Below are positions 12,490 to 56,370 of a stretch of DNA of 64,000 bases, in pieces. Position 1 is the stretch's first letter; each line of letters starts with the position of its first letter. The notes beneath the pieces were generated by a model. The model ran no database searches, had not been told where the DNA came from, and saw nothing but the letters and a program-made list of their open reading frames with translations. This DNA comes from Inonotus obliquus (lineage: Eukaryota; Basidiomycota; Agaricomycetes; Hymenochaetales; Hymenochaetaceae). Where the stretch lies: assembly GCA_032164295.1 (NCBI GenBank), contig JAJHTX010000008.1:434001-498000 (forward strand), read 5' to 3'. A program made the translations under genes and the position numbers.

Positions 12490-14074
12490 TGTTAGAAAAC
12501 GCTCGCCCTAATGGGACTATACAGTAACCACAATAGGACGGTCCGCAGTGTTACGGGTTCGGCGATGCTTTTCTAAGAGTTTCCGGAGCCTACTCGGTTT
12601 TCACAAGCAGGGCAGATTCCCAAGTATACTAAGCGTTGCCTCGGACGCTCTCGTTTATCTGATCAAGTCGGGCCTTAACCTCGTTGACAGGCTAGTAGGA
12701 CAAGTACCCGGCTGAGGCTCCGGTAGGTTGCCGTTCGCAAGCTTCTCTAGTCGGTGGGCGACTAATCAATCGTTCCACGCCGTAGAGTAAGAGAGGTTAA
12801 GCAGATTAGGTGGTCTTCAGATTAGAAGCTAGATGCCTAAGAGGACTCGATGTACAAGAGGATCGAAAGAAAGATGGGGAGCTACGGTCTAAGTCTACAA
12901 CTATTTATACCTTTTCCTCATGTTGTGGACGGACCACTTCCTACGCTCCGTAGTTCCTACTCTCGATCTGATTCGTTGTTCTAGCTTCCAAACTCGTCTG
13001 GTAATTCCATTGTTCTGCTGCGGATTGACTCATCGACTGCGCCCTGTGCAAGGCGATGACTCGGCGTTGACTCATCTTGACTTGAACTGAATTGAAACCT
13101 ATGCTCGGGGTCGGCCTTGTGCTACGCCCTGTGCATAGAGTGAGTCAGTGAGTGAGTCATTGAATGCGTGTTCGTATGCCATTGGTTTTGCATGGCTGCG
13201 CCGTAGTTAAAGTTTGCTCGTCTGCAGTTGCTCGTGCATTTAAGGAATTCCGTCGGGGTTCCATTGTATAGCATCTGGGGCTATGAAGGCTGTGATTGGC
13301 TTGTCGCCTCGGGACTCTTGTTCGGGGCCGTCAAGTGTGATTCGACATCGGATATCATCGTGGGGAAACCAAGGTGGTTTAACGTATGTGCCTATGGCGA
13401 TGAGTAGCCGTACACTTCGTCGAGTATCGTTCGAAGGTATTCTCCAGCCTAGGTATAGGTCTCCTTGTAGTCGAATAGCTTTGCAGTATGCCCATAGTTC
13501 CCTGAGTGTGTTTGCAACCCATGCCGCTGTTATCGGTGAGCGGCGGTTTGTAACATAGTCTGCACTGATCTCCACGAATGTGCTTGGGCACTCGAGTGCT
13601 AATATGTCGTGGATTCCTACTATTGTCCAGTGCGTCTTTGGTTGCATGCCTATTGCCGTATCCATTGCTATTGTTGACCTCGTGCGATTTCGAACGACCT
13701 CCGGGGGATTGTGATATTCTCGATAAGCTGTTGCTCGTTCGCTGGACACATGATATGTCAACATGCCCGTTGCCTCCCGTAGTATTATCTTGTGTAGGTC
13801 TTCGATGATCTGTCGCACTCTTCTGCATTTATAGCAAGCCGTTGGAGGTTGCTGTACTTGCTGCATCGTTTGCGAAGGTTTAGTGTGATCGTCGGGATTA
13901 GCGTTGCTAGCCGATGCTTCTTGATCGTCGGCTTCGGATTGTATTAGATTCGCGTGTTCTCCGCTTCTCGCTGTCGATCCTGATCGTCTCCGGCCAGTGA
14001 AATTAACCGGTCCCATCCGGGGTAGTTTCGATCGGCGTTCCTAATCGAATCAAAATTTCAGCACAATCCTTTCA
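12490..14074 (-). repeat. 3' LTR of Ty3 copy A
   Basis: It is 1585 bp. On the element's sense strand it starts at 14074 with TG and ends at 12490 with CA. U3 is about 1.2 kb and contains a 258-aa ORF (14016-13240). A TATA box (tatttata on +, 12902-12909) precedes the predicted RNA start by about 34 nt. R plus U5 is about 385 bp. It contains one copy of a roughly 100-bp module (12550-12652) that is tandemly duplicated in the copy B LTRs. Confidence 0.95.
13240..14016 (-). CDS. LTR-encoded 258-aa ORF of unknown function (copy A, 3' LTR)
   Basis: The ORF lies in U3 and starts 58 nt into the LTR in the sense orientation. In the 3' LTR it follows the 254-aa ORF and would be carried on the full-length transcript. 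Residues 1-58 are polar and disordered-looking; a CYKC motif at 61-64 starts a folded-looking region rich in Trp, Tyr and hydrophobics that continues to the C-terminus. I recognise no family. The same ORF is intact in all four LTRs here; between copies A and B I count seven base changes, two of them amino-acid changing. A precedent for a protein gene in an LTR U3 is the MMTV superantigen; no homology to it is implied. Confidence 0.6.
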   Translation of the reverse strand: MGPVNFTGRRRSGSTARSGEHANLIQSEADDQEASASNANPDDHTKPSQTMQQVQQPPTACYKCRRVRQIIEDLHKIILREATGMLTYHVSSERATAYREYHNPPEVVRNRTRSTIAMDTAIGMQPKTHWTIVGIHDILALECPSTFVEISADYVTNRRSPITAAWVANTLRELWAYCKAIRLQGDLYLGWRIPSNDTRRSVRLLIAIGTYVKPPWFPHDDIRCRITLDGPEQESRGDKPITAFIAPDAIQWNPDGIP

Positions 14075-14090
14075 CTCGCCCCCCTCCAAG
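14075..14090 (-). other. Polypurine tract, copy A
   Basis: Immediately before the 3' LTR the sense strand reads CTTGGAGGGGGGCGAG. A purine-rich run abutting the 3' LTR is where plus-strand DNA synthesis is primed in LTR retrotransposons. The same 16 bases occur in copy B at 48078-48093. Confidence 0.8.
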
Positions 14091-14447
14091 ATCTTTACTC
14101 GATAGGGAAAAGATCTCAATTGGGTTGAAATTGCGATGAGATCGTAGGATCGTGTGCGAAATTAGTGACGATGTTGCTTCGTATTTCCTTCGAAATTCGT
14201 GTGCTTGATGCAGTTGAAAGACTTATTGAAGTCTGAAATCGTATCCTGAGCTCGATTTGAGAGCGTGCTTCGAGGGTAATTTGAAGAAAGTAAAGGGAGA
14301 TAGCTTGACTCCCAGTCGAATTGTTGTTTCTTCTTGTAAATTTCCTTTAAGTTTCACTTTAGTGGACTTAGACTTGTCACACCAAAAGCAAAATAAGAAA
14401 ATTTTCTTTATTATTTTTCCTCCCTCTGCACCTCTTGCCCTGCCGGT

Positions 14448-15212
14448 TCAGTCCTCCCAATGGGTCTGACCGTCATTCCATCCACGCGCTGTCCACTCGC
14501 GATCTCGGCTCTCACCGGGGCTTACTGAGCCTTCGCCTGACTCTGGCGATTCGGCTGCCCGGTTGTGCAGGCCTGACCTTTCCGACACCCGCTGTCTTCC
14601 TCGCATCGGCCACCACGGGGCATTAGCCGGCGGTTGCGGACCCTGTAGTATGTACGGGCCGCCCCACGCGTTTGCTTCTGCTTCTGCCGCGTCTGCTTCT
14701 GGCCATGCTTCTGGTTCGGGTTGTACGTAGCCGGGTAGGTCGACGTATAGGTCGTCGGGCGTTGCCGGTGGTGCTTCTACCGGTGCCTGTGCCTGTTGTG
14801 CTTCTGCCGTGTTCCTGATCGCTTCGAGTTCTTCTATTGCCGCCCGCATCCTTGCGACGTCATCGACCAGCTGATCGAGTCTTGCTGCGCTCGATGTTGC
14901 TAGGTCTTCGATTGCTCGGTCGGGGATGCTCTGTAGTACTTCTTGAAGGCGGTCTTCGATGCGTCCGAAGGACGTTGCGCTTAGGTGGTGGAGTGCCTCG
15001 ACTGTGAGGTTACGGCCTTGGGCTCGTGCTCGTCTCACTTCTTGGGTCCTTCGTGACTCCTCTATCCTCATCTCTCGCTGTTCCCTGTTTATTTCCTCTA
15101 ACCTCACTACTAACTGCTCCCAGCGTTCCAGCGCTCGTCGTACGACGTCCACGATCACTACGGCTGTGGTACAGACCGTGATGATGAGGAGTGCGGTGTA
15201 GTAGGCGTTCAT
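14448..15212 (-). CDS. 254-aa membrane-anchored coiled-coil protein of Ty3 copy A
   Basis: This is the last internal ORF, between Pol and the 3' LTR, the position env occupies in retroviruses. Residues about 5-24 form one hydrophobic segment (YYTALLIITVCTTAVVIVDV), followed at once by Arg residues and a long heptad-like, Arg/Glu/Leu-rich stretch (about 26-145) that should form a coiled coil. A Pro/Ala/Glu-rich linker and a polar tail follow. There is no furin-like site, Cys framework or C-terminal anchor, so it does not look like a fusion glycoprotein; a single-span membrane tether is the safer reading. Copies A and B differ at about 19 bases but only four residues. Function unknown. Confidence 0.65.
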   Translation of the reverse strand: MNAYYTALLIITVCTTAVVIVDVVRRALERWEQLVVRLEEINREQREMRIEESRRTQEVRRARAQGRNLTVEALHHLSATSFGRIEDRLQEVLQSIPDRAIEDLATSSAARLDQLVDDVARMRAAIEELEAIRNTAEAQQAQAPVEAPPATPDDLYVDLPGYVQPEPEAWPEADAAEAEANAWGGPYILQGPQPPANAPWWPMRGRQRVSERSGLHNRAAESPESGEGSVSPGESRDREWTARGWNDGQTHWED

Positions 15213-15534
15213 GGTGTTCGAGGTGTCGTTGGTGGTTCTAGACTACTTGAATGCTTTTCCAGCTGAGGCTCTCCTGTTGGATTCCTGCCTCTATTTATGC
15301 TTTTCCAACTCGTACCCTTCGTGACTCTGTTCTAGTCTTCCCCGGGTTCACCGTGCTGCGGTTGCTGCGGTTTTCAATTGTCTTGCTGCGATCTGTGCTT
15401 CGCTGTCGCACTCTATTATTGTCGTGCTGCGGATTTCCCATATCCTGTCATTCGTGTACGAATTATCTTGCCCGTAGTCGCTTCGTAATAGTCCCGTGAT
15501 TCTTCGATGTATGTGCGCAGTTGACTTGGCATTC

Positions 15535-15621
15535 ATAAATACCATAGGGGATTTCGGGTTGCATAATGTTGAATAGATACCATAGGGTGTGCATGTGTTG
15601 TCCTGTCAATAAATACCATAG
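15535..15621 (-). repeat. Three spaced copies of a 13-bp motif between accessory ORFs
   Basis: The motif ATARATACCATAG (+ strand) occurs at 15535-15547, 15573-15585 and 15609-15621, with spacings of 38 and 36 bp. It lies between the stop of the 338-aa ORF and the start of the 254-aa ORF and is conserved in copy B. The sense strand reads CTATGGTATTTAT. It could be a binding site or an internal promoter for the 254-aa ORF; this is conjecture. Confidence 0.5.
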
Positions 15622-15638
15622 AAGAATGAGTTGCATAG

Positions 15639-16655
15639 TTATGCTTCGTCATCTGTCGGCGCTAGATCGAATTCTTCTGTGTCATCGTGGGATCTCTTGC
15701 GACTATTGGATGTGTCGTCCTCGGGTTTCCGGGATTGTAGCTTCTGCGGATACTGATATACGTCCGTGAACCAGCTACTATCTTTAGGATGTAGTACTGC
15801 GCCTAGGGTGTATCTAAGGCGGTATTCCGCACTGTTGAGTGCCTGGAGGTAGTCCTCGTCGTAAGGCCAACAAATAGATTGGTCTAGTTTGTCCGGAGGG
15901 TTCTCCCATAATCCTTCCGCTGCTTCTTTCGCTTTGTTGCGGCGTTCCGTTTCTTCGTTCTCGATCAGTTTCCACGCCTCCAAGTATGGTAAGTCTCGAT
16001 GAGGTGTGTCCCATGGGATAGACCTTCCTGGTGCTTTTGTTCGTTCCCATGTTTGTCTAAGGATGTTGATCGTAGAATAGAAACGTCTCTTGAGTCGTGC
16101 ATATTGAATTTGCTGCTGCGCGATGTACTCGATGTAGTCGCGTTCCTTGGCTGTGATACAGTGGATAAGCGACCATCGCATGACCTTGTGTTCGAATGCT
16201 TCTGTGAGCTCGACTCGATATGCGCAGATCCTCGTTGCTGCATAGAGTAATGCGACGCAATTGTTGGCTGTTTCTGTTTGTGACAACAGCAACGGTTGAT
16301 ACGATAGAATCGCTGTGCTGAGATCTAGAGCATATGCGATGTAAGCGTCGTCATTGAGTCTTCTCACTGAATTGTAAGCTTCTGTAGTCATGGCAAACCA
16401 AGATCCAAAGAATATCGGTGGCATTAGCAGCATATTGTATCCCATGCCGCGTTGATGTGCCATGCTGATCTTGTCCATGAAATCGTCGAAATATCTGCCG
16501 ACGTTCGAGGGTATGATGTCATCCCATAACATCTCGGTGTTCTCCCTGTCGTCTAGCTGTGGCCATTGATATTTGTCGGGTCGTGACTGTATGTCGACTT
16601 CTGTGACATTGAGTTGCGCATGCTGTACTTCTGCAAGTGTTTCGAGTAGTGGCAT
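15639..16655 (-). CDS. 338-aa accessory protein of Ty3 copy A, unknown function
   Basis: It is a single ORF starting 277 nt after the Pol stop. The protein is mostly helical in composition, with a hydrophobic patch near residues 71-84 (GYNMLLMPPIFFGSWF) and a charged C-terminus holding a likely nuclear localisation signal (SRKRSHDD) and an acidic end. No retroviral env, nucleocapsid or dUTPase feature is visible and no family is recognised. Between copies A and B I count about 15 substitutions, of which only two change an amino acid (Phe/Leu and Asp/Glu). That strongly suggests a protein under purifying selection. It has no ORF of its own upstream, so expression may need a spliced or internal transcript. 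Confidence 0.65.
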   Translation of the reverse strand: MPLLETLAEVQHAQLNVTEVDIQSRPDKYQWPQLDDRENTEMLWDDIIPSNVGRYFDDFMDKISMAHQRGMGYNMLLMPPIFFGSWFAMTTEAYNSVRRLNDDAYIAYALDLSTAILSYQPLLLSQTETANNCVALLYAATRICAYRVELTEAFEHKVMRWSLIHCITAKERDYIEYIAQQQIQYARLKRRFYSTINILRQTWERTKAPGRSIPWDTPHRDLPYLEAWKLIENEETERRNKAKEAAEGLWENPPDKLDQSICWPYDEDYLQALNSAEYRLRYTLGAVLHPKDSSWFTDVYQYPQKLQSRKPEDDTSNSRKRSHDDTEEFDLAPTDDEA

Positions 16656-16931
16656 TTCGAAATGTAGACTTGTTTCGTGTCGAATGAGAGTTGTTTCTGG
16701 CGTTGGTGCCGTTCATAGGTCGTTACTGCCTGTTCTTATAGTTTTGCGTCGTTACTGCGTATGACTGGGTGATCGGTCCAGTTGTTTTCGATATGACTTG
16801 ACCTCTACTGCGTATACTGTACCGCAGTGTCTCTCGTTCGTTCGTGACTGCTCATGACTCGTCGTGACTTCGTAAATTCTCAAGCATTGCTGCGAGAATG
16901 TCATCATCTGCTGCGATCTGTGCGTGCGTAG

Positions 16932-19900
16932 TCATCTGCTGCTGCGCGTAGTCCTTCCTCGACTGTGCATGCTGCGTTGACTGTCTTCTGATACTGTGCT
17001 TTCGGTATCAGTATTACCTTCTGAGTCTGACGTCGATCCTTCTGATTCGTCGGAGGATTCTTCCGTGTCCTCGTGACTCGTTTGTTTCCTATTCCGGCGC
17101 CTCGCGGATAACCATTGCGTAAGGTTCCGTGGCTTCTGCGCCTGAGGGTACTTCTTGTGGAAGTCCTCAACTAGCTTGTACGTGTGCTTCAGGTTCTCCA
17201 GCGGTTCCCATGTTGTTTCTGCATAGCCTTTCCATCTGACTAGGTATTGCACCTTGCTGCGCCGCAGTCTGGTATCTTGAACTGCTTCGACTTCGTATTC
17301 GGCTGCGCCTTCCACTTCTACTGGTGGTGGTTCCGTAAGTTGCTTACGTCCTGGGAATTCTTTCCGCTTGTATGGCTTCAATAGACTCGCATGAAATACT
17401 GGGTGAATTGCCATCGTTTCAGGAAGTTTCAGTCGAAATGAAACCTTCCCCACGGCCTTGTCGACTTTATAAGGCCCTGCCCATTTCATGGCTAGTTTCT
17501 TCGTCGGTTCGAGTCTTGCTAAGTTCTTCATATCCAACATCACTTCGTCTCCAGGTCGATAATCTGGTAGCTTCCCTCGATGTAAGTCTGCATATAACTT
17601 CATCGCTTCGTTAGCCTGCTTAATGCTTGCATAGGCTTGTCGCTGCGCTTGTTGAAGCTCCTCTCGGTAATCTTGTGCTTCTGGGACGTTGCTTTCGTCG
17701 TGACTGGCAAAGTCAGTTGTTGGATTCCATCCGTACAACGTGTAGAATGGTGATTGACGTGTTGCTGAATGCTGTCTGTTGTTATAGGCGAATTCTGCGA
17801 GATCCAAGTAATGTGCCCAATCTGTCTGTCGGTAGGACACATAGCAGCGTAAGTACTGTTCCATCGTTTGGTTCAGTCGCTCTGTTTGACCATCGGTTTG
17901 TGGGTGATACGCGGTGCTAGTTTTCCAATCGATTTCGAGGAGTCGGCAGAACTCCTTCAAAAACTGCGCCGTGAAGTTGCTTCCTCTGTCGGAGAGTACA
18001 ACCTTTGGGGTCCCATAATGCTTGAAGATGTTTTGGATGAACATCTGTGCAATGCGTTTGGCATTCGGTACACCCGTCGTAGGGATGAACCTCCCCATCT
18101 TGGTAAGTCTATCCACAACAACCAATATGGTGTCATATCCCTCGGTACTGACTGGTAGGTCTGTAACCAGGTCACAGGAAATGGCTTCCCATGGCCTTTC
18201 AGGTGGGGATATCGGTTGAATCGGTGGCTCGCGATTTTGCCGAAGAGGCTTTGATCGCTGACATGCGTCGCAAGTTGTTACGTAGTTTCGGACGTCCGAT
18301 CGAAGGTTTGGCCAATAGTATCGTCTCTCCAGAAGCTCAGTGGTTTTGGCTACTCCGGGATGGCCTGCAGTTGTGTGGTCATGGTGCCTTCGCATTAGTA
18401 GACTTCGTAGGTTGGCGTTCGGCGGGATCCATAACTTTCCATCTACATAACGAGTTCCATCCGTGTAGGTGTGGCTTCTGTCTTTCGTATTCCGTATGAC
18501 GTTCCATTCGGTTTGTGCCTCCTTCGTCGCATAGTCCTTTCGAATAGTTCGAAGTATCGGGTCCGTGATCCTGACTGATGTAGTTTTCAACTCGTATAGT
18601 CCTGCGACTTCCGTTCGTTTCAACGTTTGCTGCTGTATGCGGTCTGCTGGTAGCATAGTGATCTTTTCTGTGTCTTTGCCGATTTCGTAATCGGTTCGCC
18701 TTGATAGTGCGTCGGCTTTGTTCTCCTTGCCTGGCCAATGTATCATCTTGAAGTTAAACTGGGATAGCTTTAGCATCCATCGTTTCAGCTTCTCAGATAG
18801 GTTCTGTCCTGTCATGAACCATTGCAGGTTCTTATGATCCGTTCGAATGATAAAAGGATGTTTTGTTCCTTCGAGCAAGTGTCTCCATTCGTTGAGTGAA
18901 TGAACAATTGCGAACATCTCCTTTTCGTGAACTGGCCAGTTGAGTTGTGCTCCTGACAACTGCTTCGACATTGTGGCTAACGGTCGTAGTTCGCCCTTGT
19001 CGTCTTCTTGTTGGAGTAAAGCTCCGATCGCAAATTTCGATGCATCTGTCTCGAGGATAAATGGTTTATCGTGGTTCGGATAACCTAGCGTTATTTCCGT
19101 TTGAAACGCCTGCTTGATGTCCTCGAATGCTTGCTGACATTCAGTTGTCCATACGAACTTCCTATCCTTCTTGGTGAGTTCGTTAATCGGGTGTATGCGC
19201 TCTGCATAGTTCTTCACGAATCTTCGATAGAAGTTGCAAAATCCTTGGAACTTCCTGATTTCCCGTTTCGTTGTTGGTGTAGGCCATTCTGCGATTGCTT
19301 TGAGTTTGTACGGGTCCATTTGTACTCCCTTGTCGCCTACTATGAAGCCTAGGTAGTCTAGCTTCTTCTGTAGGAAATGGCACTTCTCGATCTTCAAGTA
19401 GATATCGAGTTCTCGGCATTTCTTCAAGACTGCTCGTAGGAGTTTCCAGTGTTCCTCCTCAGTCTTTGCCTTTCCGATGATGTCGTCCAGGTAGATAAGT
19501 ATCTCCTGACTTCGTAGCCATTGCTCAAAGTTGTCGTTCATGAATCGTTGGAATATTGCGGGTGAGTTCTTCATTCCGAACATCATAACGAGTGGCTTGT
19601 AGATTGCGTTGCCAACTCGGAATGCCGCTTTCCATTCGTCTCCTTCCTTGATACGCAAGTTGTGGTATCCGGACCGCATGTCCAATGTGAAGAAGTAATT
19701 GTTGCCTGCCAACTTGTCTGGTAACCCATTCATAATTGGAATCGGGTACGGGTCTGGTATCGTGATTTGGTTTATCGCTCGATAGTCCGTTACGACTCTT
19801 GCCCCTCCGTCCTTCTTTCCAACAAAGAATATGGGTGATGCCACTGGGCATGGTTCGTGTGGTTCGACCTTGGTGATCCATCCTTTCTTCATCAGCTCAT

Positions 19901-22268
19901 CTACGTGGTTGTCCAGTGCTTCCTGTTCGACTGGTGTGAGCTTGATAATAGGTCGTGGTTTCGGTAACGGTTCCTTCTCATTGAGGTGTATGACCATGTC
20001 ATACTTCGTATGTCTTGGTAGTCGTCTTGCCCTGTCTGGATCGAATACGTCTGCATAGTCTGCTATCTGCCTTGGTAGCAGTTTGCGCCAATCTCGTTTC
20101 TGCGTGTCTAGCAATCCCTCTGCTGCTGCTTTCTGCTGCGAGTATTGCTGCGCTACTGAGCTAACCTTGTTCAATGGTTGCTTCTCTTGGCGATGCTGTC
20201 GATTCGTATTTGGTGACCAATTTCGTTTGATCTCAAACATTTCTGCGAGATCCTCCTTCTGCAGTAAGGGTTTTGATTTACCTCGAGCCTTGGTGGCGAG
20301 ATACGCTATTCGTTGCTGAATAGGTGATGGTTCGTTGGTTACCATACGTTCGATATGCATTTCTTCTTGAGGTTGGGTTCCTCCTGGTTCTTGCAGTTCG
20401 TCCATAACTTCGTCTTGATCCGTGTGCTCCCACCTTGTTCTTTTTGGTGCGGGGCTTCGTGTTCGTGTACTTCCTGTACTATCGATAGACTGTCTTCGCC
20501 GATGTCCTAATATCGGTTTGTCTTCGAATCGTTCCTTTCGTGGCATAATCCATGTGCCTTTCGGATCGAAGTTTCCTACGGCTTCTTCTCCTTCTCGAAG
20601 ATAACCTTTCCAGTACTTGAATGTAGGGTCTTCCTTGACTACTCGTGGTTTCGTTGTCTTCCGTTCGACTGACGGTGACTCTTGTCTTCGCTTTCCTAGC
20701 GATGTCGTACTTGGTTGCAAGGGCTTATTGCGACTGCCTTGACTCTGTACTCGTGTATCAGGTCTTTCTGCCTGTTCATTCTCGAATCTTGATATAGGCG
20801 ATCTTGATTCGTCTTCGGGCCTTATTGGTACTGCCCAGTCTTGTCGAGTCTTATTGCCACTGCTCTGACTAGACTGCAAAGTCTTATTGGCGCTGCTTTG
20901 TCTTGGTGCGTTCGACTGTCGTTCACCTTCTGGCGTCCGTGCTCTCTTCCTTGGAGCATTGCTGAATTGACTTCCTGATCGTGGTCTAATTCTCGGTGGT
21001 GAAACGTTCCTTGTTTCGTTTCTCGTCGATCGGCTTTCGCTTCTGTTTCTGCCTTCTCTAGGGTGGTCGTCCCTTTGCCTTTCCTTCGTGTTGAGGTCTG
21101 GCCTAATCCATATTCCACTATCGTTGTCGCTATCGCTGTCGGTTTCTGAGTTGTCAGATGAGCCGGATCCAGGGCTCTTCGTAGCTTTAGCTTTCGTCTT
21201 CCTGCCATAGGCTGTCTTGCGCGTAACAGGTGATTTATTATCCAACGGCAACGTCTTATTGGTACTGCGTTGACTGTTCAAGGACTTATTGCCAATGCCT
21301 TGTTGTTTCGGTCGTTGATCGTCTCGACTCTTCAAGGTCTTATTGCGACTGCCTTGTGCCTGCTTGGTCTTATTGCTACTGCCATGCTGCGATCGTTGAT
21401 CTACTTGTGGAACCTTCCGTTTCTCTGTCTTGTATAGAGCTTTCGATGTCTTCGTGCCTTCGTCTTGGGTAATGGCTCTTTCATTCCCGTACCAGGATGG
21501 TCGCTCCTGACTAGTCGCCTCTCCTATTCGATTGGGCCTAGCTTTCCTTCGTTGTTCGCGATTACAACTGTTCTCTCGATCGTCTACCGATTTGCGCTTG
21601 TCGGTTACCAGATTTCCCTTTGGTCCGTTGACGCTTGGGTCGTTTCGTGTAGCCTTATTGCCATTGCTACTCTGGTTTGATCGTAAGGTCTTATTGACTC
21701 TGCCTTTCGTAGCCTTATTGCCATTGCTACCCTGCCGTTCGGTCTTATTGGTGCTGCCTGAACGCGGTGAGGGCTTATTTGTCCTGCCTCTACGATTACG
21801 GTTTGTACTTTTCCGTTTTCGTTTTCGTTTCTTGCTTGTCGACTCTGCTCGAACGATACTGAGCTCGAATGGTATCGTTTGTCCATTTCCTTCCATGACT
21901 TGTTCTTTCCAATCGATGATCGGGTTGGCCTTGCCCAAATAATCGATGCCTAGTATGATCTGATCCGTTCCCGTATGTGCGACTGCCAGGGTTTGACCGA
22001 TGGGCTTGATTCCGTCAAATATAAGTGCGTCCACTTCGTACTTGATTGCTCCTTTTCGGTTTGCTGTTCCATCTGCATTTCGCAACGGTCTAGGTTGTGA
22101 TAGCGTTCGTCTTGGTAAGTCGTGTTTCCGTACTAACTCCGGATGAATAGTACTGCATGTTGCTCCTGAGTCGATAAGTGCTTTGACTGCTAAGGTTTGC
22201 GTTCCCACAAGAATCCTGATAGGCAATCTTGGGTGTAATGCATATGTCGGTAATCCTTTACTGTACAT
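16932..22268 (-). CDS. pol: Pol polyprotein (protease, RT, RNase H, integrase, chromodomain), copy A
   Basis: 1778 codons from the first in-frame ATG; the frame is open back to 22343, overlapping gag, and would be entered by a -1 shift at 22325-22331. Order: aspartic protease (DSG at 33-35); a spacer of about 600 residues full of NKT-type repeats; reverse transcriptase from about residue 770, with YLDD near 925; RNase H (ETDAS near 1071); integrase with HHCC finger near 1293 and catalytic Asp-Asp-Glu near 1364, 1424 and 1459; chromodomain at about 1655-1710 (VQYLVRWKGYAETTWEPLEN); Ser/Glu-rich tail. The domain order and chromodomain place it in the Ty3 chromoviruses, whose chromodomain guides integration to marked chromatin. 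All catalytic residues are present. The long protease-RT spacer is unusual. Confidence 0.95.
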   Translation of the reverse strand: MYSKGLPTYALHPRLPIRILVGTQTLAVKALIDSGATCSTIHPELVRKHDLPRRTLSQPRPLRNADGTANRKGAIKYEVDALIFDGIKPIGQTLAVAHTGTDQIILGIDYLGKANPIIDWKEQVMEGNGQTIPFELSIVRAESTSKKRKRKRKSTNRNRRGRTNKPSPRSGSTNKTERQGSNGNKATKGRVNKTLRSNQSSNGNKATRNDPSVNGPKGNLVTDKRKSVDDRENSCNREQRRKARPNRIGEATSQERPSWYGNERAITQDEGTKTSKALYKTEKRKVPQVDQRSQHGSSNKTKQAQGSRNKTLKSRDDQRPKQQGIGNKSLNSQRSTNKTLPLDNKSPVTRKTAYGRKTKAKATKSPGSGSSDNSETDSDSDNDSGIWIRPDLNTKERQRDDHPREGRNRSESRSTRNETRNVSPPRIRPRSGSQFSNAPRKRARTPEGERQSNAPRQSSANKTLQSSQSSGNKTRQDWAVPIRPEDESRSPISRFENEQAERPDTRVQSQGSRNKPLQPSTTSLGKRRQESPSVERKTTKPRVVKEDPTFKYWKGYLREGEEAVGNFDPKGTWIMPRKERFEDKPILGHRRRQSIDSTGSTRTRSPAPKRTRWEHTDQDEVMDELQEPGGTQPQEEMHIERMVTNEPSPIQQRIAYLATKARGKSKPLLQKEDLAEMFEIKRNWSPNTNRQHRQEKQPLNKVSSVAQQYSQQKAAAEGLLDTQKRDWRKLLPRQIADYADVFDPDRARRLPRHTKYDMVIHLNEKEPLPKPRPIIKLTPVEQEALDNHVDELMKKGWITKVEPHEPCPVASPIFFVGKKDGGARVVTDYRAINQITIPDPYPIPIMNGLPDKLAGNNYFFTLDMRSGYHNLRIKEGDEWKAAFRVGNAIYKPLVMMFGMKNSPAIFQRFMNDNFEQWLRSQEILIYLDDIIGKAKTEEEHWKLLRAVLKKCRELDIYLKIEKCHFLQKKLDYLGFIVGDKGVQMDPYKLKAIAEWPTPTTKREIRKFQGFCNFYRRFVKNYAERIHPINELTKKDRKFVWTTECQQAFEDIKQAFQTEITLGYPNHDKPFILETDASKFAIGALLQQEDDKGELRPLATMSKQLSGAQLNWPVHEKEMFAIVHSLNEWRHLLEGTKHPFIIRTDHKNLQWFMTGQNLSEKLKRWMLKLSQFNFKMIHWPGKENKADALSRRTDYEIGKDTEKITMLPADRIQQQTLKRTEVAGLYELKTTSVRITDPILRTIRKDYATKEAQTEWNVIRNTKDRSHTYTDGTRYVDGKLWIPPNANLRSLLMRRHHDHTTAGHPGVAKTTELLERRYYWPNLRSDVRNYVTTCDACQRSKPLRQNREPPIQPISPPERPWEAISCDLVTDLPVSTEGYDTILVVVDRLTKMGRFIPTTGVPNAKRIAQMFIQNIFKHYGTPKVVLSDRGSNFTAQFLKEFCRLLEIDWKTSTAYHPQTDGQTERLNQTMEQYLRCYVSYRQTDWAHYLDLAEFAYNNRQHSATRQSPFYTLYGWNPTTDFASHDESNVPEAQDYREELQQAQRQAYASIKQANEAMKLYADLHRGKLPDYRPGDEVMLDMKNLARLEPTKKLAMKWAGPYKVDKAVGKVSFRLKLPETMAIHPVFHASLLKPYKRKEFPGRKQLTEPPPVEVEGAAEYEVEAVQDTRLRRSKVQYLVRWKGYAETTWEPLENLKHTYKLVEDFHKKYPQAQKPRNLTQWLSARRRNRKQTSHEDTEESSDESEGSTSDSEGNTDTESTVSEDSQRSMHSRGRTTRSSR
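20730..21790 (-). repeat. NKT-repeat spacer within Pol, copy A
   Basis: On the + strand the phrase gtcttattg or a close variant recurs more than a dozen times, encoding short repeats of the form S/G-x-NK-T/A/S/P separated by 8-30 residues. They fill the segment between protease and reverse transcriptase. The repeat is conserved in copy B (about 54780-55850) with small changes, such as NKS/NKP and NKA/NKT swaps. The low-complexity, basic, Asn-rich sequence suggests a flexible or condensate-forming linker; no enzyme domain is seen in it. Confidence 0.7.
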
Positions 22269-22318
22269 TTCTTCGCAATCCTTATTACCCTCTCGCTTCG
22301 CAGTCTTGAGCGGAGGTG

Positions 22319-23434
22319 CTAGTCTTTTCCCTGACCTTGTGCCTTAGCCTTTCCTTTGTTAGGCTTCTGGTCGCGTGGTTTGGGATTGACGTTTCGCCTG
22401 TTCGTATGATCGTCGTCTTCTTCTTCCTCGGATTCGGCTTCTTGAATTCTCGCGTGCATGGTTCTTCTATTCTTCTTGTGATGCTTCGACGATCTTCCAC
22501 GTGCTCCTTTAGACGTGTTTGGTCGACGATGTTGGCGGTGATTACCTAGTGCTCCTTTAGACGTAGGTGATCTTCTTGGTTCGGGGCATTTGCTTGCATA
22601 GTGACCCTGTCTTCCGCAATTGTAACATCCTGATGATCCCTTCTTCGGCAAGCCTCGGATTGCATCGATGTCCATTGCATTCGGATCCCTTTCTAGTCTT
22701 GTAGGCTGCTCGTACCTCGGTTGTCCATGAAATGAATACCGTGGTTGATATGTTCCTTGCGTGAGCTGAGCCTTTGTCTTGTTCATGACTGCATATTGCT
22801 CCGTTATTGCCATCCATTCTTCGTATCCGAATTTCGTGAATGCTTCCATGTCGTGTGCGAGTACGCGATTGATAAGCCATTGATCCAATCCTTTGATGTA
22901 GCAGTGCTTGATCGTATTCTCGTCCACTGTGCTTGCAATCTTTGTTCGTAGTTGCCTGAATGCGTGATTGTAACTCTCGATAGGTTTGCTGGCCTGTTTG
23001 ATATTGAATATCTTGTTCAGGGCCTCGAGTTCTTGTGGAACGGTTTTGCCTGCTTTGGTACGAATGAATTGAATCATATCCCTGAGTGATGCGAACATAG
23101 CGGTAGGAGGTTTCGCAACTGCTCCTGCTGCATCTACGACGGTAGGTAAGCTCTTGAGTGCTCCGGTGGTAGCGTCGAATGATACGGTGAGTTGCTTTTC
23201 GAGGAACCAATTGAATGCATCTCCCTCGATAGCTAGGAATAGCGCGTTCGCAATTTCCTTCTCGTCCTTAATTCCGTTTGACACTAATTTCGCCACACTT
23301 CTGTCTACCCATTGATCGATACTTTCGTCTCGTGCGCCTAGAAACTTTGGTAGTTTGATCGACAATCTTGCCATTCGACTAGTAAGCTCATTGATCCGAG
23401 CTTGTAGTTGATCTGGTGTTGGAGGTGTTGCCAT
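22319..23434 (-). CDS. gag: Gag-like capsid/nucleocapsid protein, copy A
   Basis: 371 aa. The central part resembles a Ty3-type retrotransposon Gag capsid domain, with a ...FNWFLE... core and a helical region up to about residue 220. A CCHC zinc knuckle, CYNCGRQGHYASKC, sits near residues 269-282, followed by a basic, then acidic, tail. Such proteins assemble particles and package element RNA. The ATG overlaps the end of the 293-aa ORF by 47 nt in another frame. The stop codon lies 3 nt after a G GGA AAA slippery heptamer leading into the pol frame. Copies A and B differ at three residues. Confidence 0.9.
   Translation of the reverse strand: MATPPTPDQLQARINELTSRMARLSIKLPKFLGARDESIDQWVDRSVAKLVSNGIKDEKEIANALFLAIEGDAFNWFLEKQLTVSFDATTGALKSLPTVVDAAGAVAKPPTAMFASLRDMIQFIRTKAGKTVPQELEALNKIFNIKQASKPIESYNHAFRQLRTKIASTVDENTIKHCYIKGLDQWLINRVLAHDMEAFTKFGYEEWMAITEQYAVMNKTKAQLTQGTYQPRYSFHGQPRYEQPTRLERDPNAMDIDAIRGLPKKGSSGCYNCGRQGHYASKCPEPRRSPTSKGALGNHRQHRRPNTSKGARGRSSKHHKKNRRTMHARIQEAESEEEEDDDHTNRRNVNPKPRDQKPNKGKAKAQGQGKD
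22325..22331 (-). promoter_or_regulatory. -1 ribosomal frameshift heptamer GGGAAAA between gag and pol, copy A
   Basis: On the sense strand the gag frame ends CAG GGA AAA GAC TAG. G GGA AAA has exactly the X XXY YYZ form in register with the gag codons. A -1 slip there yields AGA CTA GCA..., which is open in the pol frame and runs into the Pol ATG 20 codons later without a stop. The site is identical in copy B (56377-56383). Whether a downstream stimulatory RNA structure exists was not assessed. Confidence 0.8.
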
Positions 23435-24269
23435 TGTCGGTAAATGCTACTACGCGAGGTGGTCTGATCGGTAATAGAGTTGTCTCGAATGTTTCAACGA
23501 TTGGTACGCTTGTCTGTACGCCGCTTGATACTGTCGCGGGTTCTTCTTCCAATGTCAGGTTACGAATTCTTGTCAAGACTTCCTCGATCTGTTCACGTGG
23601 AATGAAGGTGAACTGTTCGATGTGCGTTTCGCCTGAGTCTATTGATTCGTTACTTTCCAATGACCTTTGGATTTCGTTGCGTGTTTCTCGAATGCGTTGA
23701 GTTGTTTCGATGTGTTCTCTCTGGATGTTTCCGATTAACTCTGTGAGTTGTTGGTACTGGTCGTCGAGCTTCTTGTTCTGCTCTTCTAGCTGATTTGTTC
23801 TATCAACGAGTCCGTTGATTAACGTTCTTTCGACGAAGAATCGTTGTCTTGTCGATTGCTCGAATTCTTCGAGATCCTTGGCTAGTCCAGATACTGTAAC
23901 TCCTTCTCCTGTAGCGGTTCGCTCTTCCTGAAGATTAGACCTCTGTAAGTTTGCTGGCGTGCTTCCTGCGATAACGTTGTCTTGGAGTCCTTCGACGGCT
24001 GCTATAATTCTTCTCGTTAAGAATTTGATTTCGTCGATTTCGATTTGACGTTGTTCCTCGTGGATCTCCAATAACTCTTGTCTGTTGTGTTGTGCGATCA
24101 CTTGTCTTTCGAGTGTCGCGATCCTTGCTAGGGTTTCGTATTCCCTTGTCAACTCTCGTGCTTGTCTTGCGTTTCGATTGTTGCCTCGACGTTCTGGCTG
24201 TTCTTGTGTGTCGTTGCGTGGACCTCTTGGTAGGTTGCTTCGACCGTTACTACGTCGTTGATGTTGCAT
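23388..24269 (-). CDS. 293-aa coiled-coil ORF upstream of gag, copy A
   Basis: First large ORF of the element. The N-terminus is Arg/Asn/Gln-rich (basic), followed by long Glu/Gln/Leu/Ile-rich helical stretches (about residues 35-95 and 125-215) that should form coiled coils, and a Thr/Val/Pro-rich tail. No zinc knuckle or capsid signature is seen. It overlaps gag by 47 nt in a different frame, so gag needs reinitiation, leaky scanning or another transcript. I count about 20 base differences from copy B but only three residue changes, which argues for a functional protein. It could be a structural partner of Gag; this is inference from position. Confidence 0.65.
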   Translation of the reverse strand: MQHQRRSNGRSNLPRGPRNDTQEQPERRGNNRNARQARELTREYETLARIATLERQVIAQHNRQELLEIHEEQRQIEIDEIKFLTRRIIAAVEGLQDNVIAGSTPANLQRSNLQEERTATGEGVTVSGLAKDLEEFEQSTRQRFFVERTLINGLVDRTNQLEEQNKKLDDQYQQLTELIGNIQREHIETTQRIRETRNEIQRSLESNESIDSGETHIEQFTFIPREQIEEVLTRIRNLTLEEEPATVSSGVQTSVPIVETFETTLLPIRPPRVVAFTDNGNTSNTRSTTSSDQ

Positions 24270-24495
24270 ATATCGATAAGCGAATTGGCTTCTTTAGTTG
24301 ACTTCGTATCCTTCCTGGATAATGTTCTTCGTAGTCGTCAGATTCTTTTCTCCTCCTGTAAGCCCAGGTTTCCTTCTGAATCAATCTTCAACTAGCTACG
24401 AGTCAGTCGACTTCCGATGAAGGTGACTCTAGTAGACTTGTACTCGATTCGATGTGTGATGGGACACTTGATCGTATATCGTATCGGTGATAGTT

Positions 24496-24699
24496 TCACT
24501 GTAGCTCGACTACGTATGTAGGAACTGCAGGTAATGGTTCTTCGACGAGTGGCTGGCAATTACAACTGCTCGAGTCGAAGTTGGGTGAATACAACTGATA
24601 CTCTTCCTGACTAACGTTTGCTACGCAAGCCCAGTAAAGAATAACAGTGGCTAATTTGATAATGATGTGAGTAATTTGTAGAACGGTAGTGACGTGCAC
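24496..24699 (-). CDS. 67-aa hydrophobic leader ORF, copy A
   Basis: A short ORF in the untranslated leader between the 5' LTR and the 293-aa ORF. Residues about 8-29 are hydrophobic (QITHIIIKLATVILYWACVA) and could be a signal anchor; the remainder is polar with a few Cys. It is identical, base for base as far as compared, to 58548-58751 in copy B. It may be a small membrane peptide or simply an upstream ORF that modulates translation. It is short enough that chance cannot be excluded. Confidence 0.35.
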   Translation of the reverse strand: MHVTTVLQITHIIIKLATVILYWACVANVSQEEYQLYSPNFDSSSCNCQPLVEEPLPAVPTYVVELQ

Positions 24700-24810
24700 C
24701 TTTCACTAGCGTTAGACGCTGTTGGTTATTACACTCCCAATTGCGAGTGGATCTTCTTTCTTCGTATGTTAGAAAGCGATAACACTGATCTACTGAGATT
24801 CCCGAAGGAG

Positions 24811-24825
24811 ATCTTTCTTTCGATC
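24811..24825 (-). promoter_or_regulatory. Self-complementary primer-binding site, copy A
   Basis: Three bases inside the 5' LTR the sense strand reads GATCGAAAGAAAGAT. A tRNA-primed element would begin TGG here; none is present. The 15 bases are a perfect complement of the sense LTR sequence ATCTTTCTTTCGATC (25214-25200), which is the predicted 5' end of the RNA. This is the arrangement used by Tf1-type self-priming retrotransposons, where the folded RNA 5' end is cleaved and primes reverse transcription. Confidence 0.85.
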
Positions 24826-25199
24826 GAATGTTAGAAAACGCTCGCCCTAATGGGACTATACAGTAACCACAATAGGACGGTCCGCAGTGTTACGGGTTCG
24901 GCGATGCTTTTCTAAGAGTTTCCGGAGCCTACTCGGTTTTCACAAGCAGGGCAGATTCCCAAGTATACTAAGCGTTGCCTCGGACGCTCTCGTTTATCTG
25001 ATCAAGTCGGGCCTTAACCTCGTTGACAGGCTAGTAGGACAAGTACCCGGCTGAGGCTCCGGTAGGTTGCCGTTCGCAAGCTTCTCTAGTCGGTGGGCGA
25101 CTAATCAATCGTTCCACGCCGTAGAGTAAGAGAGGTTAAGCAGATTAGGTGGTCTTCAGATTAGAAGCTAGATGCCTAAGAGGACTCGATGTACAAGAG

Positions 25200-25214
25200 G
25201 ATCGAAAGAAAGAT
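25200..25214 (-). promoter_or_regulatory. Predicted RNA 5' end / self-primer sequence, copy A
   Basis: Sense strand ATCTTTCTTTCGATC, starting 34 nt below the start of the TATA box, where transcription initiation is expected. It pairs with all 15 bases of the primer-binding site at 24825-24811. The same pair exists in copy B (59355-59341 with 58877-58863). Confidence 0.8.
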
Positions 25215-25240
25215 GGGGAGCTACGGTCTAAGTCTACAAC

Positions 25241-25248
25241 TATTTATA
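25241..25248 (-). promoter_or_regulatory. TATA box of the Ty3 copy A promoter
   Basis: The sense strand reads GGTATAAATAG in the LTR, with TATAAATA at 25248-25241. Its position 34 nt upstream of the self-primer sequence, and its conservation in all four LTRs, support it as the core promoter. Confidence 0.75.
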
Positions 25249-25578
25249 CCTTTTCCTCATGTTGTGGACGGACCACTTCCTACGCTCCGTAGTTCCTACT
25301 CTCGATCTGATTCGTTGTTCTAGCTTCCAAACTCGTCTGGTAATTCCATTGTTCTGCTGCGGATTGACTCATCGACTGCGCCCTGTGCAAGGCGATGACT
25401 CGGCGTTGACTCATCTTGACTTGAACTGAATTGAAACCTATGCTCGGGGTCGGCCTTGTGCTACGCCCTGTGCATAGAGTGAGTCAGTGAGTGAGTCATT
25501 GAATGCGTGTTCGTATGCCATTGGTTTTGCATGGCTGCGCCGTAGTTAAAGTTTGCTCGTCTGCAGTTGCTCGTGCAT

Positions 25579-26355
25579 TTAAGGAATTCCGTCGGGGTTC
25601 CATTGTATAGCATCTGGGGCTATGAAGGCTGTGATTGGCTTGTCGCCTCGGGACTCTTGTTCGGGGCCGTCAAGTGTGATTCGACATCGGATATCATCGT
25701 GGGGAAACCAAGGTGGTTTAACGTATGTGCCTATGGCGATGAGTAGCCGTACACTTCGTCGAGTATCGTTCGAAGGTATTCTCCAGCCTAGGTATAGGTC
25801 TCCTTGTAGTCGAATAGCTTTGCAGTATGCCCATAGTTCCCTGAGTGTGTTTGCAACCCATGCCGCTGTTATCGGTGAGCGGCGGTTTGTAACATAGTCT
25901 GCACTGATCTCCACGAATGTGCTTGGGCACTCGAGTGCTAATATGTCGTGGATTCCTACTATTGTCCAGTGCGTCTTTGGTTGCATGCCTATTGCCGTAT
26001 CCATTGCTATTGTTGACCTCGTGCGATTTCGAACGACCTCCGGGGGATTGTGATATTCTCGATAAGCTGTTGCTCGTTCGCTGGACACATGATATGTCAA
26101 CATGCCCGTTGCCTCCCGTAGTATTATCTTGTGTAGGTCTTCGATGATCTGTCGCACTCTTCTGCATTTATAGCAAGCCGTTGGAGGTTGCTGTACTTGC
26201 TGCATCGTTTGCGAAGGTTTAGTGTGATCGTCGGGATTAGCGTTGCTAGCCGATGCTTCTTGATCGTCGGCTTCGGATTGTATTAGATTCGCGTGTTCTC
26301 CGCTTCTCGCTGTCGATCCTGATCGTCTCCGGCCAGTGAAATTAACCGGTCCCAT
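25579..26355 (-). CDS. LTR-encoded 258-aa ORF (copy A, 5' LTR)
   Basis: Identical translation to the ORF at 13240-14016. In this LTR it lies upstream of the predicted transcription start, so it would need its own promoter in the flanking or proximal U3 sequence to be expressed. Confidence 0.5.
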   Translation of the reverse strand: MGPVNFTGRRRSGSTARSGEHANLIQSEADDQEASASNANPDDHTKPSQTMQQVQQPPTACYKCRRVRQIIEDLHKIILREATGMLTYHVSSERATAYREYHNPPEVVRNRTRSTIAMDTAIGMQPKTHWTIVGIHDILALECPSTFVEISADYVTNRRSPITAAWVANTLRELWAYCKAIRLQGDLYLGWRIPSNDTRRSVRLLIAIGTYVKPPWFPHDDIRCRITLDGPEQESRGDKPITAFIAPDAIQWNPDGIP

Positions 26356-26413
26356 CCGGGGTAGTTTCGATCGGCGTTCCTAATCGAATCAAAATTTCAG
26401 CACAATCCTTTCA

Positions 26414-46403: not shown

Positions 46404-48077
46404 TGTTAGAAAACGCTCGCCCTAATGGGACTATACAGTAACCACAATAGGACGGTCCGGTTGGTTACGGGTTCGGCGATGCTTTTCTAAAGGTTTCCGG
46501 AGCCTACTCGGTTTTCACAAGCAGGGCAGATTCCTAAGTATACTAGGCGTTGCCTCAAACGTTCACTAGGTTGTTTCACCAGTGTTACGGGTTCGACGGT
46601 GCTATTCCAAGGGTTTCCGGAGCCTCGATGGGGCAGATTCCCAAGTGTACTAAGCGTTGTCTCGGACGCTCACTTTTGGCTAATCAAGTCGGGCCTCAAC
46701 CTCGTTGACAGACTAGTAGGACAGTGTCGACTGCCGTTCGTAAGCTTCCCTAGTCGGTGGACGACTAATCAATCGTTCCACGCCGTAGAGTAAGAGAGGT
46801 TAAGCAGATTAGGTGGTCTTCAGATTAGAAGCTAGATGCCTAAGAGGACTCGATGTACAAGATGATCGAAAGAAAGATGGGGAGCTACGGTCTAAGTCTA
46901 CAACTATTTATACCTTTTCCTCCTGTTGTGGACAGACCACTTCCTACGCTCCGTAGTTCCTACTCTCGATCTGATTCGTTATTCTAGCTTCCAAACTCGT
47001 CTGGTATTCCCATTGTTCTGCTGCGGATTGACTCATCGACTGCGCCCTGTGCAAGGCGATGACTCGGCGTTGACTCATCTTGACTTGAACTGAATTGAAA
47101 CCTATGCTCGGGGTCGGCCTTGTGCTGCGCCCTGTGCATAGAGTGAGTCAATGAGTGAGTCATTGAATGCGTGTTCGTATGCCATTGGTTTTGCATGGCT
47201 GCGCCGTAGTTAAAGTTCGCTCGTCCGCAGTTGCTCGTGCATTCAAGGAATTCCGTCGGGGTTCCGTTGTATAGCATCTGGGGCTATGAAGGCTGTGATT
47301 TGCTTGTCGCCTCGGGACTCTTGTTCGGGGCCGTCAAGTGTGATTCGACATCGGATATCATCGTGGGGAAACCAAGGTGGTTTAACGTATGTGCCTATGG
47401 CGATGAGTAGCCGTACACTTCGTCGAGTATCGTTCGAAGGTATTCTCCAGCCTAGGTATAGGTCTCCTTGTAGTCGAATAGCTTTGCAGTATGCCCATAG
47501 TTCCCTGAGTGTGTTTGCAACCCATGCCGCTGTTATCGGTGATCGGCGGTTCGTAACATAGTCTGCACTGATCTCCACGAATGTGCTTGGGCACTCGAGT
47601 GCTAATATATCGTGGATTCCTACTATTGTCCAGTGCGTCTTTGGTTGCATGCCTATTGCCGTATCCATTGCTATTGTTGACCTCGTGCGATTTCGAACGA
47701 CCTCCGGGGGATTGTGGTATTCTCGATAAGCTGTTGCTCGTTCGCTGGACACATGATATGTCAACATGCCCGTTGCCTCCCGTAGTATTATCTTGTGTAG
47801 GTCTTCGATGATCTGTCGCACTCTTCTGCATTTATAGCAAGCCGTTGGGGGTTGCTGTACTTGCTGCATCGTTTGCGAAGGTTTAGTGTGATCGTCGGGA
47901 TTAGCGTTGCTAGCCGATGCTTCTTGATCGTCGGCTTCGGATTGTATTAGATTCGCGTGTTCTCCGCTTCTCGCTGTCGATCCTGATCGTCTCCGGCCAG
48001 TGAAATTAACCGGTCCCATCCGGGGTAGTTTCGATCGGCGTTCCTAATCGAATCAAAATTTCAGCACAATCCTTTCA
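46404..48077 (-). repeat. 3' LTR of Ty3 copy B
   Basis: 1674 bp, TG...CA on the sense strand. Contains the U3 ORF (48019-47243) and a tandem duplication of a roughly 100-bp module in the R/U5 part (46464-46565 and 46584-46675), present once in copy A. Confidence 0.95.
47243..48019 (-). CDS. LTR-encoded 258-aa ORF (copy B, 3' LTR)
   Basis: Same ORF as in copy A with Pro-to-Gln and Trp-to-Arg changes in the last 25 residues; the other base differences are silent. Here it follows the 254-aa ORF on the full-length transcript. Confidence 0.6.
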   Translation of the reverse strand: MGPVNFTGRRRSGSTARSGEHANLIQSEADDQEASASNANPDDHTKPSQTMQQVQQPPTACYKCRRVRQIIEDLHKIILREATGMLTYHVSSERATAYREYHNPPEVVRNRTRSTIAMDTAIGMQPKTHWTIVGIHDILALECPSTFVEISADYVTNRRSPITAAWVANTLRELWAYCKAIRLQGDLYLGWRIPSNDTRRSVRLLIAIGTYVKPPWFPHDDIRCRITLDGPEQESRGDKQITAFIAPDAIQRNPDGIP

Positions 48078-48093
48078 CTCGCCCCCCTCCAAG
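48078..48093 (-). other. Polypurine tract, copy B
   Basis: Sense CTTGGAGGGGGGCGAG directly before the 3' LTR, identical to copy A. Confidence 0.8.
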
Positions 48094-48450
48094 ATCTTTA
48101 CTCGATAGGGAAAAGATCTCAATTGGGTTGAAATTGCGATGAGATCGTAGGATCGTGTGCGAAATTAGTGACGATGTTGCTTCGTATTTCCTTCGAAATT
48201 CGTGTGCTTGATGCAGTTGAAAGACTTATTGAAGTCTGAAATCGTATCTTGAGCTCGATTTGAGAGCGTGCTTCGAGGGTAATTTGAAGAAAGTAAAGGG
48301 AGATAGCTTGACTCCCAGTCGAATGGTTGTTTCTTCTTGCAAATTTCCTTTAAGTTTCACTTTAGTGGACTTAGACTTGTCACACCAAAAGCAAAATAAG
48401 AAAATTTTCTTTATTATTTTTCCTCCCTCTGCACCTCTTGCCCTGCCGGT

Positions 48451-49215: not shown

Positions 49216-49639
49216 GGTGTTCGAGGTGTCGTTGGTGGTTCTAGACTACTTGTGCTTTTCCAGCTGAGGCTCTCCTGTTGGATTCCTGCCTCTATTTATG
49301 CTTTTCCAACTCGTACCCTTCGTGACTCTGTTCTAGTCTTCCCCGGGTTCGCCGTGCTGCGGTTGCTGCGGTTTTCAATTGTCTTGCTGCGATCTGTGCT
49401 TCGCTGTCGCACTCTATTATTGTCGTGCTGCGGATTTCCCATATCCTGTCATTCGTGTACGAATTATCTTGCCCGTAGTCGCTTCGTAATAGTCCCGTGA
49501 TTCTTCGATGTATGTGCGCAGTTGACTTGGCATTCATAAATACCATAGGGGATTTCGGGTTGCATAATGTTGAATAGATACCATAGGGTGTGCATGTGTT
49601 GTCCTGTCAATAAATACCATAGAAGAATGAGTTGCATAG

Positions 49640-50656: not shown

Positions 50657-50968
50657 TTCGAAATGTAGACTTGTTTCTTGTCGAATGAGAGTTGTTTCTG
50701 GCGTTGGTGCCGTTCATCGGTCGTTACTGCTTGTTCTTATAGCTTTGTGTCGTTACTGCGTATGACTGGGTGATCGGTCCAGTTGTTTTCGATATGACTT
50801 GACCTCTACTGCGTATACTGTGCCGCAGTGTCTCTCGTTCGTTCGTGACTGTTCATGACTTGTCGTGACTTCGTAAATTCTCAAGCATTGCTGCGAGAAT
50901 GTCATCATCTGCCGCGATCTGCTGTGATCAGCTGCGGATGAGTACTACTTGCTGTGCCGCAGGTATGC

Positions 50969-56320: not shown

Positions 56321-56370
56321 TTCTTCGCAATCCTTCTTACCCTCTCGCTTCGCAGTCTTGAGCGGAGGTG

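Follow-up and report, generated by a model that had tools for sequence, protein, structure and literature searches.

A chromovirus family of the fungus Inonotus obliquus with four additional frames that behave as genes

A family of Ty3 chromoviruses in Inonotus obliquus carries four open reading frames (ORFs) in addition to gag and pol, and the substitutions among its copies show that these four frames behave as genes under purifying selection. Two complete copies of the element, A and B, lie in a stretch of 64,000 nt (assembly GCA_032164295.1, contig JAJHTX010000008.1, positions 434,001 to 498,000 of the forward strand), which is called the window throughout. The extra frames are referred to as p293, p338, p254 and p258. 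The family is probably autonomous and recently active, with four acquired genes, and would amount to a “complex” long terminal repeat (LTR) retrotransposon expressed by the mechanism proposed below. A recently mobile Ty3 chromovirus with added conserved ORFs had been predicted from this DNA, and that prediction is supported.

Element structure and selection on the extra genes

The positions, minus-strand orientation and target site duplications (TSDs) originally predicted for copies A and B were borne out by their LTR pairs and flanking duplications, as was the near-identity of their LTRs. In the list that follows, element coordinates are in the orientation of copy A, where element nt x is window position 26414 - x.

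12490..26413, minus strand: copy A, complete element, 13924 bp, with an LTR pair and the TSD GCAAC at 12485-12489 and 26414-26418
46404..60554, minus strand: copy B, complete element, 14151 bp, with an LTR pair and the TSD GGATT at 46399-46403 and 60555-60559
24829..26413, minus strand: 5' LTR of copy A, 1585 bp (element nt 1-1585), identical to the 3' LTR
12490..14074, minus strand: 3' LTR of copy A, 1585 bp (element nt 12340-13924), 0 mismatches to the 5' LTR
46404-48077 and 58881-60554, minus strand: LTRs of copy B, 1674 bp, 1 mismatch
25579..26355, minus strand: 5' LTR copy of p258, in U3 and upstream of the LTR promoter (nt 59-835 within each copy A LTR)
23388..24269, minus strand: p293 (element nt 2145-3026, after the leader), coiled-coil-like, with the first ATG of the predicted genomic RNA in the weak context TATATGC
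22319..23434, minus strand: gag (element nt 2980-4095), 371 aa, with a CCHC knuckle, the strong start context ACAATGG and a 47-nt overlap with p293
16932..22268, minus strand: pol (element nt 4146-9482), 1778 aa, with protease (PR), long linker, reverse transcriptase (RT), RNase H, integrase (IN) and chromodomain by Pfam
15639..16655, minus strand: p338 (element nt 9759-10775), identified as an ORF and by the selection test
14448..15212, minus strand: p254 (element nt 11202-11966), with a hydrophobic segment at its N-terminus (Kyte-Doolittle 2.43 at residue 6)
13240..14016, minus strand: 3' LTR copy of p258, likewise in U3, which genomic RNA would carry

Both copies have the same six ORFs, of 293, 371 (gag), 1778/1783 (pol), 338, 254 and 258 aa, four of them extra to gag and pol. 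The assignment to the chromoviruses is based on LTRs with TG..CA ends, a primer-binding site (PBS), a purine-rich tract before the 3' LTR, a 5-bp TSD and the Pfam domain order PR-RT-RNase H-IN followed by a C-terminal chromodomain (Chromo, E 1.8e-10); gag has capsid-like and CCHC matches in Pfam. The original prediction had counted seven ORFs, five of them extra. Four of the five stand; the fifth, a 67-aa frame, is not supported and was not counted as a gene because it has no ATG (it begins with GTG at element nt 1715, inside a copy A leader devoid of ATG), leaving four extra genes. Copy B and one further locus (L038) have an additional stretch of ~110 bp in the R-U5 part that resembles a duplication of adjacent sequence. 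The linker between PR and RT (pol residues about 150-700, within 16932-22268) is unusually long and of low complexity, with repeated SNKT-like motifs, and is shorter in a Sanghuangporus relative.

Selection was assessed by classifying the substitutions among copies and comparing them with permutations that preserve base and CpG context. The counts are given below as synonymous/nonsynonymous/stop, followed by the expected counts, the sample and the nonsynonymous/synonymous ratio relative to expectation.

p338: 57/17/1; expected 23.3/48.6/3.1; 17 of 18 loci, 16 distinct; 0.14
p293: 41/14/0; expected 18.2/34.3/2.5; 13 of 17 loci; 0.17
gag (part): 26/10/0; expected 11.4/23.3/1.3; 13 of 17 loci; 0.18
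p254: 42/30/0; expected 22.2/46.3/3.4; 17 of 18 loci, 16 distinct; 0.32
p258: 31/28/2; expected 17.5/40.2/3.3; 3' LTRs at 17 of 18 loci, 15 distinct (the truncated C7 copy dropped); 0.39

P was at its floor in every test (about 0.0005-0.001), and alternative frames gave no synonymous excess in any tested gene. Two of the extra genes are thus as strongly constrained as gag and two more weakly, p338 being the most constrained. The p338 and p254 test left out a partial locus (L074) and one of other length (L056); the sample for p293 and gag consisted of A, B and 11 further loci and excluded the 47-nt overlap of the two frames, in which there were zero variable sites among the 13 loci. The frame of p258 is intact in 16 of 17 copies of the 3' LTR. 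An earlier p258 test on the 30 best of 148 protein matches (43 synonymous and 24 nonsynonymous against 21 and 41.7 expected) was replaced, its sample being biased against amino-acid changes; constraint is weaker in the 3' LTR sample.

A six-frame search of the host genome (36 Mb, 30 contigs) with the extra proteins as queries places A and B in a larger family. The element had been described as present twice, but there are 18 related loci: p254 matched 18, p338 the same 18 (one partially) and p293 17. The listed matches to the four extra proteins are all 95-100% identical and therefore belong to the element family. Matches to p258 are far more numerous, with at least 148 scored places (of 207 candidates; the query began after the initial Met and ran through the stop, which left the listed matches unaffected). 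Of the 148 places, 32 are interrupted by in-frame stops, and 29 of these 32 have TGA only, as CpG decay would be expected to produce in LTR copies that no longer move.

All frames surveyed (p293, pol, p338, p254 and p258 at both ends; gag only partly examined) are open in 12 of the 18 loci. In one of the 12, C8:124k, ~8.6 kb separate the 5' p258 from the p293 that follows it and include a foreign integrase match, an arrangement that we read as a probable nested insertion. The remaining loci are damaged in different ways: p293 has a stop in C12:52k and C13:481k (the latter with a shortened pol frame as well), pol is broken in C4:427k, both p338 and p258 have stops at C6:2.95M, C7:490k gave no p293 or pol matches, and C6:2.51M (G000:C6:2507470-2514302) is 2.2 kb shorter between p293 and p338. 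Loss or breakage of the extra ORFs in every other member, which would have told against the prediction, was looked for within the host genome and not found: the frames are open in most loci. TSDs of 5 bp flank the five copies examined (A, B and three more, with CTCAT, GATGG and CCGAG), and the LTR pairs of A, B and two others differ by 0, 1, 0 and 0 bases; a fifth pair, in the truncated C7 copy, is of unequal lengths.

Two loci have peculiarities of their own. At G000:C6:2507470-2514302, the p293 and integrase matches each report an open frame of 1700 codons. At G000:C12:390421-415965, p258 occurs at 390421, 402808 and 415195, with p254, p338 and p293 each present twice and a middle LTR apparently common to two elements; these appear to form a tandem of the kind left by recombination.

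The extra products had been said to match no recognised family, and this holds within the databases searched. All four gave weak matches only against Pfam and PHROGs, none above the Pfam cut-off, and p258 and p338 matched no recognised family among PDB sequences. For p293 and p338, a search of 5.8 billion proteins gave no match with an E value of 0.01 or lower. Because that database holds retroelement proteins of Sanghuangporus baumii, close relatives of p338 and p293 may be missing there, although such a search is blind to unannotated or strongly diverged ORFs. A weak PHROG match of p293 (E 4e-4) resembles coiled-coil similarity; the protein has zero cysteines and weak matches to coiled-coil-type families. 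Against viral contigs, p258, p293, p254 and a pol alignment gave no matches. A match of p338 there (L097; 29% identity, E 1e-5) was rejected as chance: it includes the 8-residue pattern used in its own selection, its surroundings are phage-like (with a thymidine-kinase-like ORF, judged by eye) and the record has no pol match. The position of the genes allows guesses as to function: p293 might work with Gag in assembly or RNA binding, p254 might serve as a membrane anchor, and p338 and p258 might be regulators of expression or of host defence.

In the search with pol, 5922 proteins passed among 7999 candidates scored. Among the best 120 listed, the nearest over RT-IN are ENA protein P0001 (80% identity) and S. 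baumii ACEPAG_2574 (68%), followed by other S. baumii proteins down to 65%, P0011 (59%) and the rest at 45% or less. In S. baumii, gag shares 41% identity with that of the element and is annotated together with pol as a single protein. In an RT-IN tree without outgroup or reference clades (17 of 26 hand-picked sequences were usable, plus the element), the element groups with Sanghuangporus and other chromodomain proteins; together with its closest relatives it forms a group with full local support, and a different chromovirus family from this genome falls outside that group.

Proposed expression of the element

The sequence features on which the expression model draws are as follows (conservation across copies was computed without the truncated C7 copy).

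25241..25248, minus strand: TATA box of the LTR promoter, TATAAATA (element nt 1166), beginning 34 nt before the predicted R start
25200..25214, minus strand: predicted R start, ATCTTTCTTTCGATC (element nt 1200), complementary to the PBS, present in 5 of 5 5' LTR loci examined
24811..24825, minus strand: PBS, GATCGAAAGAAAGAT, 15 nt that are exactly reverse-complementary to the R start and separated from the LTR by 3 nt
24270..25214, minus strand: leader (R-U5 and spacer), 945 nt, ATG-free in copy A by ATG scan
24496..24699, minus strand: claimed 67-aa ORF (element nt 1715-1918), unsupported by the leader sequence, with a GTG start and no ATG
22325..22331, minus strand: slippery heptamer G_GGA_AAA, in frame with gag and separated from its stop by one sense codon, kept in 13 of 13 copies looked at
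22287..22316, minus strand: stem-loop 8 nt downstream of the heptamer, z -1.5, non-significant alone
16732..16741, minus strand: TATA-like CTATAAGAAC, with the first base of its TATAA 85 nt upstream of the p338 ATG, in 17 of 17 copies
15292..15298, minus strand: TATA-like ATAAATA, 86 nt before the p254 ATG, in 17 of 17 copies, with surroundings like those of the LTR promoter
14017..14476, minus strand: 460 nt free of ATG by ATG scan, between the final ATG in the p254 region and the start codon of p258

The LTR promoter would give rise to one unspliced genomic RNA, whose 5' end would prime reverse transcription as in Tf1. Of 5 intact leaders, 5 show the 15-nt complementarity between the predicted R start and the PBS, the position of the RNA 5' end being placed by means of the TATA box. 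With an RNA start at nt 1200, U3 would comprise nt 1-1199 and p258 would be located upstream of the promoter, so that the genomic RNA would contain p258 at its 3' end only.

Translation of this RNA would begin with p293. Between the R start and the p293 ATG, the 945 nt of copy A contain 0 ATG where 8.7 are expected from dinucleotide shuffles (P 0.002), and the 832 nt between the p293 and gag ATGs contain 0 where 3.6 are expected (P 0.018), so that the gag ATG is the next one, 835 nt past that of p293. By the usual scanning rules the start context of p293 is poor and that of gag good. A weak start followed at such a distance by gag as the next ATG suggests leaky scanning as the simplest reading: some ribosomes would initiate at the weak ATG of p293, and others would continue scanning as far as that of gag. 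Copy A has its three longest stretches without ATG (991, 835 and 460 nt) directly before the ATGs of p293, gag and p258; in the 36 kb of non-element window DNA the longest such stretch on either strand is 417 nt. The 431-nt part of the third stretch that lies outside p254 is ATG-free in 16 of 17 copies (P 0.005 for copy A). Relative to gag, pol occupies the -1 frame, and it is open across the heptamer, at which Gag-Pol would be made by -1 frameshifting.

For the genes downstream of pol, p338 and p254 could be translated from short mRNAs transcribed from internal TATA promoters. The box before p254, GGAAAAGCATAAATAG, is similar to the LTR promoter, GGAAAAGGTATAAATAG; given ten TATA-like matches in copy A, the chance of one in a given 16-nt window is ~1%. 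With transcription starting ~30 nt past the boxes, the first ATG of the short RNAs would be that of p338 or p254, an ATG at nt 9698 being just excluded. The remaining extra protein, p258, would be made from the copy in the 3' LTR.

Alternative explanations and neighbouring DNA

Accessory genes located 3' of pol are classically expressed by splicing, and one alternative to internal promoters is that the extra genes come from spliced subgenomic RNAs like those of most retroviruses and of the Cer1 element. Retroviral custom favours this explanation, as does the precedent of Cer1, whose CERV is translated from spliced mRNA according to the available part of the report (PMC10309623). Four donor-like motifs (GTRNGY) do persist in the sense RNA of copy A, but this is about fivefold below the 19.4 of shuffled sequences (minimum 9 of 200), and the antisense strand has 75. 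Per kb, the motif occurs 0.36 times in A and 0.57 times in B against 3.4-3.5 in the surrounding DNA. Motifs combining branch point and acceptor are less depleted (19 vs 30.3 in shuffles, minimum 15); no such pair precedes p338, p254 or p258 in copy A, and in copy B three of them lie 235-263 nt upstream of the p338 start. Splicing is therefore considered unlikely. Donor depletion together with the TATA-like boxes before p338 and p254 favours internal promoters, which are the preferred, if unproven, explanation for these two genes.

The other alternatives concern the nature of the extra frames. Two genes between pol and the 3' LTR, one of them encoding a strongly hydrophobic segment, could point to an env-bearing, retrovirus-like element in which one 3' gene is an envelope. 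The single strong segment of p254 is N-terminal, however, the hydropathy of p338 reaches a maximum of only 1.25, and neither protein has a Pfam match above cut-off; hydropathy and Pfam, methods that could miss a very divergent Env, thus identified no Env-like membrane glycoprotein gene, and an envelope is very improbable here. Hardly more can be said for recently captured host genes that hitch-hike without function for the element. LTR elements do capture genes, the ORF3s of bdelloids being an example in the portion of the source available (PMC5408684), but the listed host-genome matches are all members of the family and the copies show purifying selection. Finally, the near absence of differences between LTR pairs might suggest that the frames are open simply because the copies are young, with no selection involved. 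This is scarcely credible and already contradicted by the selection tests: the pooled substitutions among copies (72 in p254 and 75 in p338) shun amino-acid changes.

Several observations nonetheless weigh against the proposal of a recently active element with four selected genes expressed as described. The p293 test omits 4 of 17 loci, including both with a stop and the copy with an internal deletion, so its sample favours intact p293. Because the copies are related, the substitution counts are not independent, although the contrast between frames is internal to the same data. AlphaFold models made without an alignment were unusable, with a mean predicted local distance difference test (pLDDT) score of 40.8 for p338 and 39.8 for p258. 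The leader is ATG-free in 4 of 5 copies, that of copy B having one ATG, and the stems at the frameshift site (z -1.5 and -1.2) are non-significant alone. As for the internal promoters, the TATA-like boxes were noticed post hoc, the 102 nt upstream of p254 are as variable as coding DNA (13 of 102 sites), and the ATG at nt 9698, 61 nt before p338, would interfere unless transcription begins downstream of it. No promoter was found for p258.

The rest of the window contains further transposon-like and host-like frames. Two minus-strand frames at 43923-46304 begin ~100 bp before copy B; the downstream one matches a DDE_1 (pogo-type) transposase and the upstream one (45459-46304) has no Pfam match. 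An open frame at 31049-32161 with a DDE_3 match is read as a Tc1/mariner-like transposase. The frame at 38188-39288 has a TFIIB repeat and a BRF1 domain and is therefore probably the host Brf1 gene, and that at 40311-41942 encodes an F-box-like protein.

Comparison with known systems

With other fungal chromoviruses the element shares Gag, the PR-RT-RNase H-IN-chromodomain order, the 5-bp TSD and TG..CA LTRs. It differs in its six ORFs: in a survey of fungal Gypsy elements (Novikova et al., 2010; PMC2864245), most have one or two, with lengths from 4.4 to over 13 kb, as far as the available parts of that survey go. A figure label there marks an additional ORF of unknown function, with no detail in the accompanying text, and self-priming is also mentioned. 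Neither great length nor an extra ORF is thus new in a fungal Gypsy element, since the same portions of the survey report both. A non-exhaustive search of the open literature found no description of four selected extra genes with one of them in U3.

Tf1 of Schizosaccharomyces pombe, in which reverse transcription is primed by the 5' end of the element's own RNA, has one ORF and short LTRs. The family described here resembles Tf1 in that the predicted start of R is complementary to a PBS just past the 5' LTR; it differs in the 15 nt that pair, its six ORFs and its 1.6-kb LTRs.

Parallels in layout come from complex retroviruses, which have genes 3' of pol and in U3 (tas/bet of foamy virus, sag of mouse mammary tumour virus, nef of lentiviruses); where a retroviral gene lies in U3, the genomic RNA carries the 3' LTR copy only. 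Extra genes 3' of pol, one of them in U3, are shared with the I. obliquus element, and possibly also internal promoters like those of foamy viruses (represented here by TATA-like boxes only). The differences are that no env was recognised and no sequence similarity found, and that the element has a chromodomain integrase, a fungal host and an extra gene before gag. It is conceivable, though rather less likely than the general reading given at the outset, that this is a fungal complex retroelement in which the layout of complex retroviruses evolved independently, with regulators expressed from internal promoters, a U3 gene that may control its own LTR and a leaky leader that sets the ratio of p293 to Gag. 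If so, p258 would have been left behind in more than a hundred LTR copies.

LTR elements of plants and rotifers also have conserved ORFs in addition to gag-pol (Grande, Retand and bdelloid ORF3; PMC7264820, PMC5408684, as far as the available text extends). In the plant elements covered by the accessible part of the review (PMC7264820), the extra ORF mostly lies between pol and the 3' LTR in sense or antisense, whereas here there are four sense ORFs and one is in U3. Gag and Pol are considered sufficient for the movement of LTR retrotransposons in that review. Here a recently active fungal family has four more genes maintained under selection. It opens the roles of accessory genes in a fungal retrotransposon (in silencing, RNA export, assembly or cell-to-cell passage) to direct test, and offers an independent comparison for the acquisition of accessory genes by complex retroviruses.

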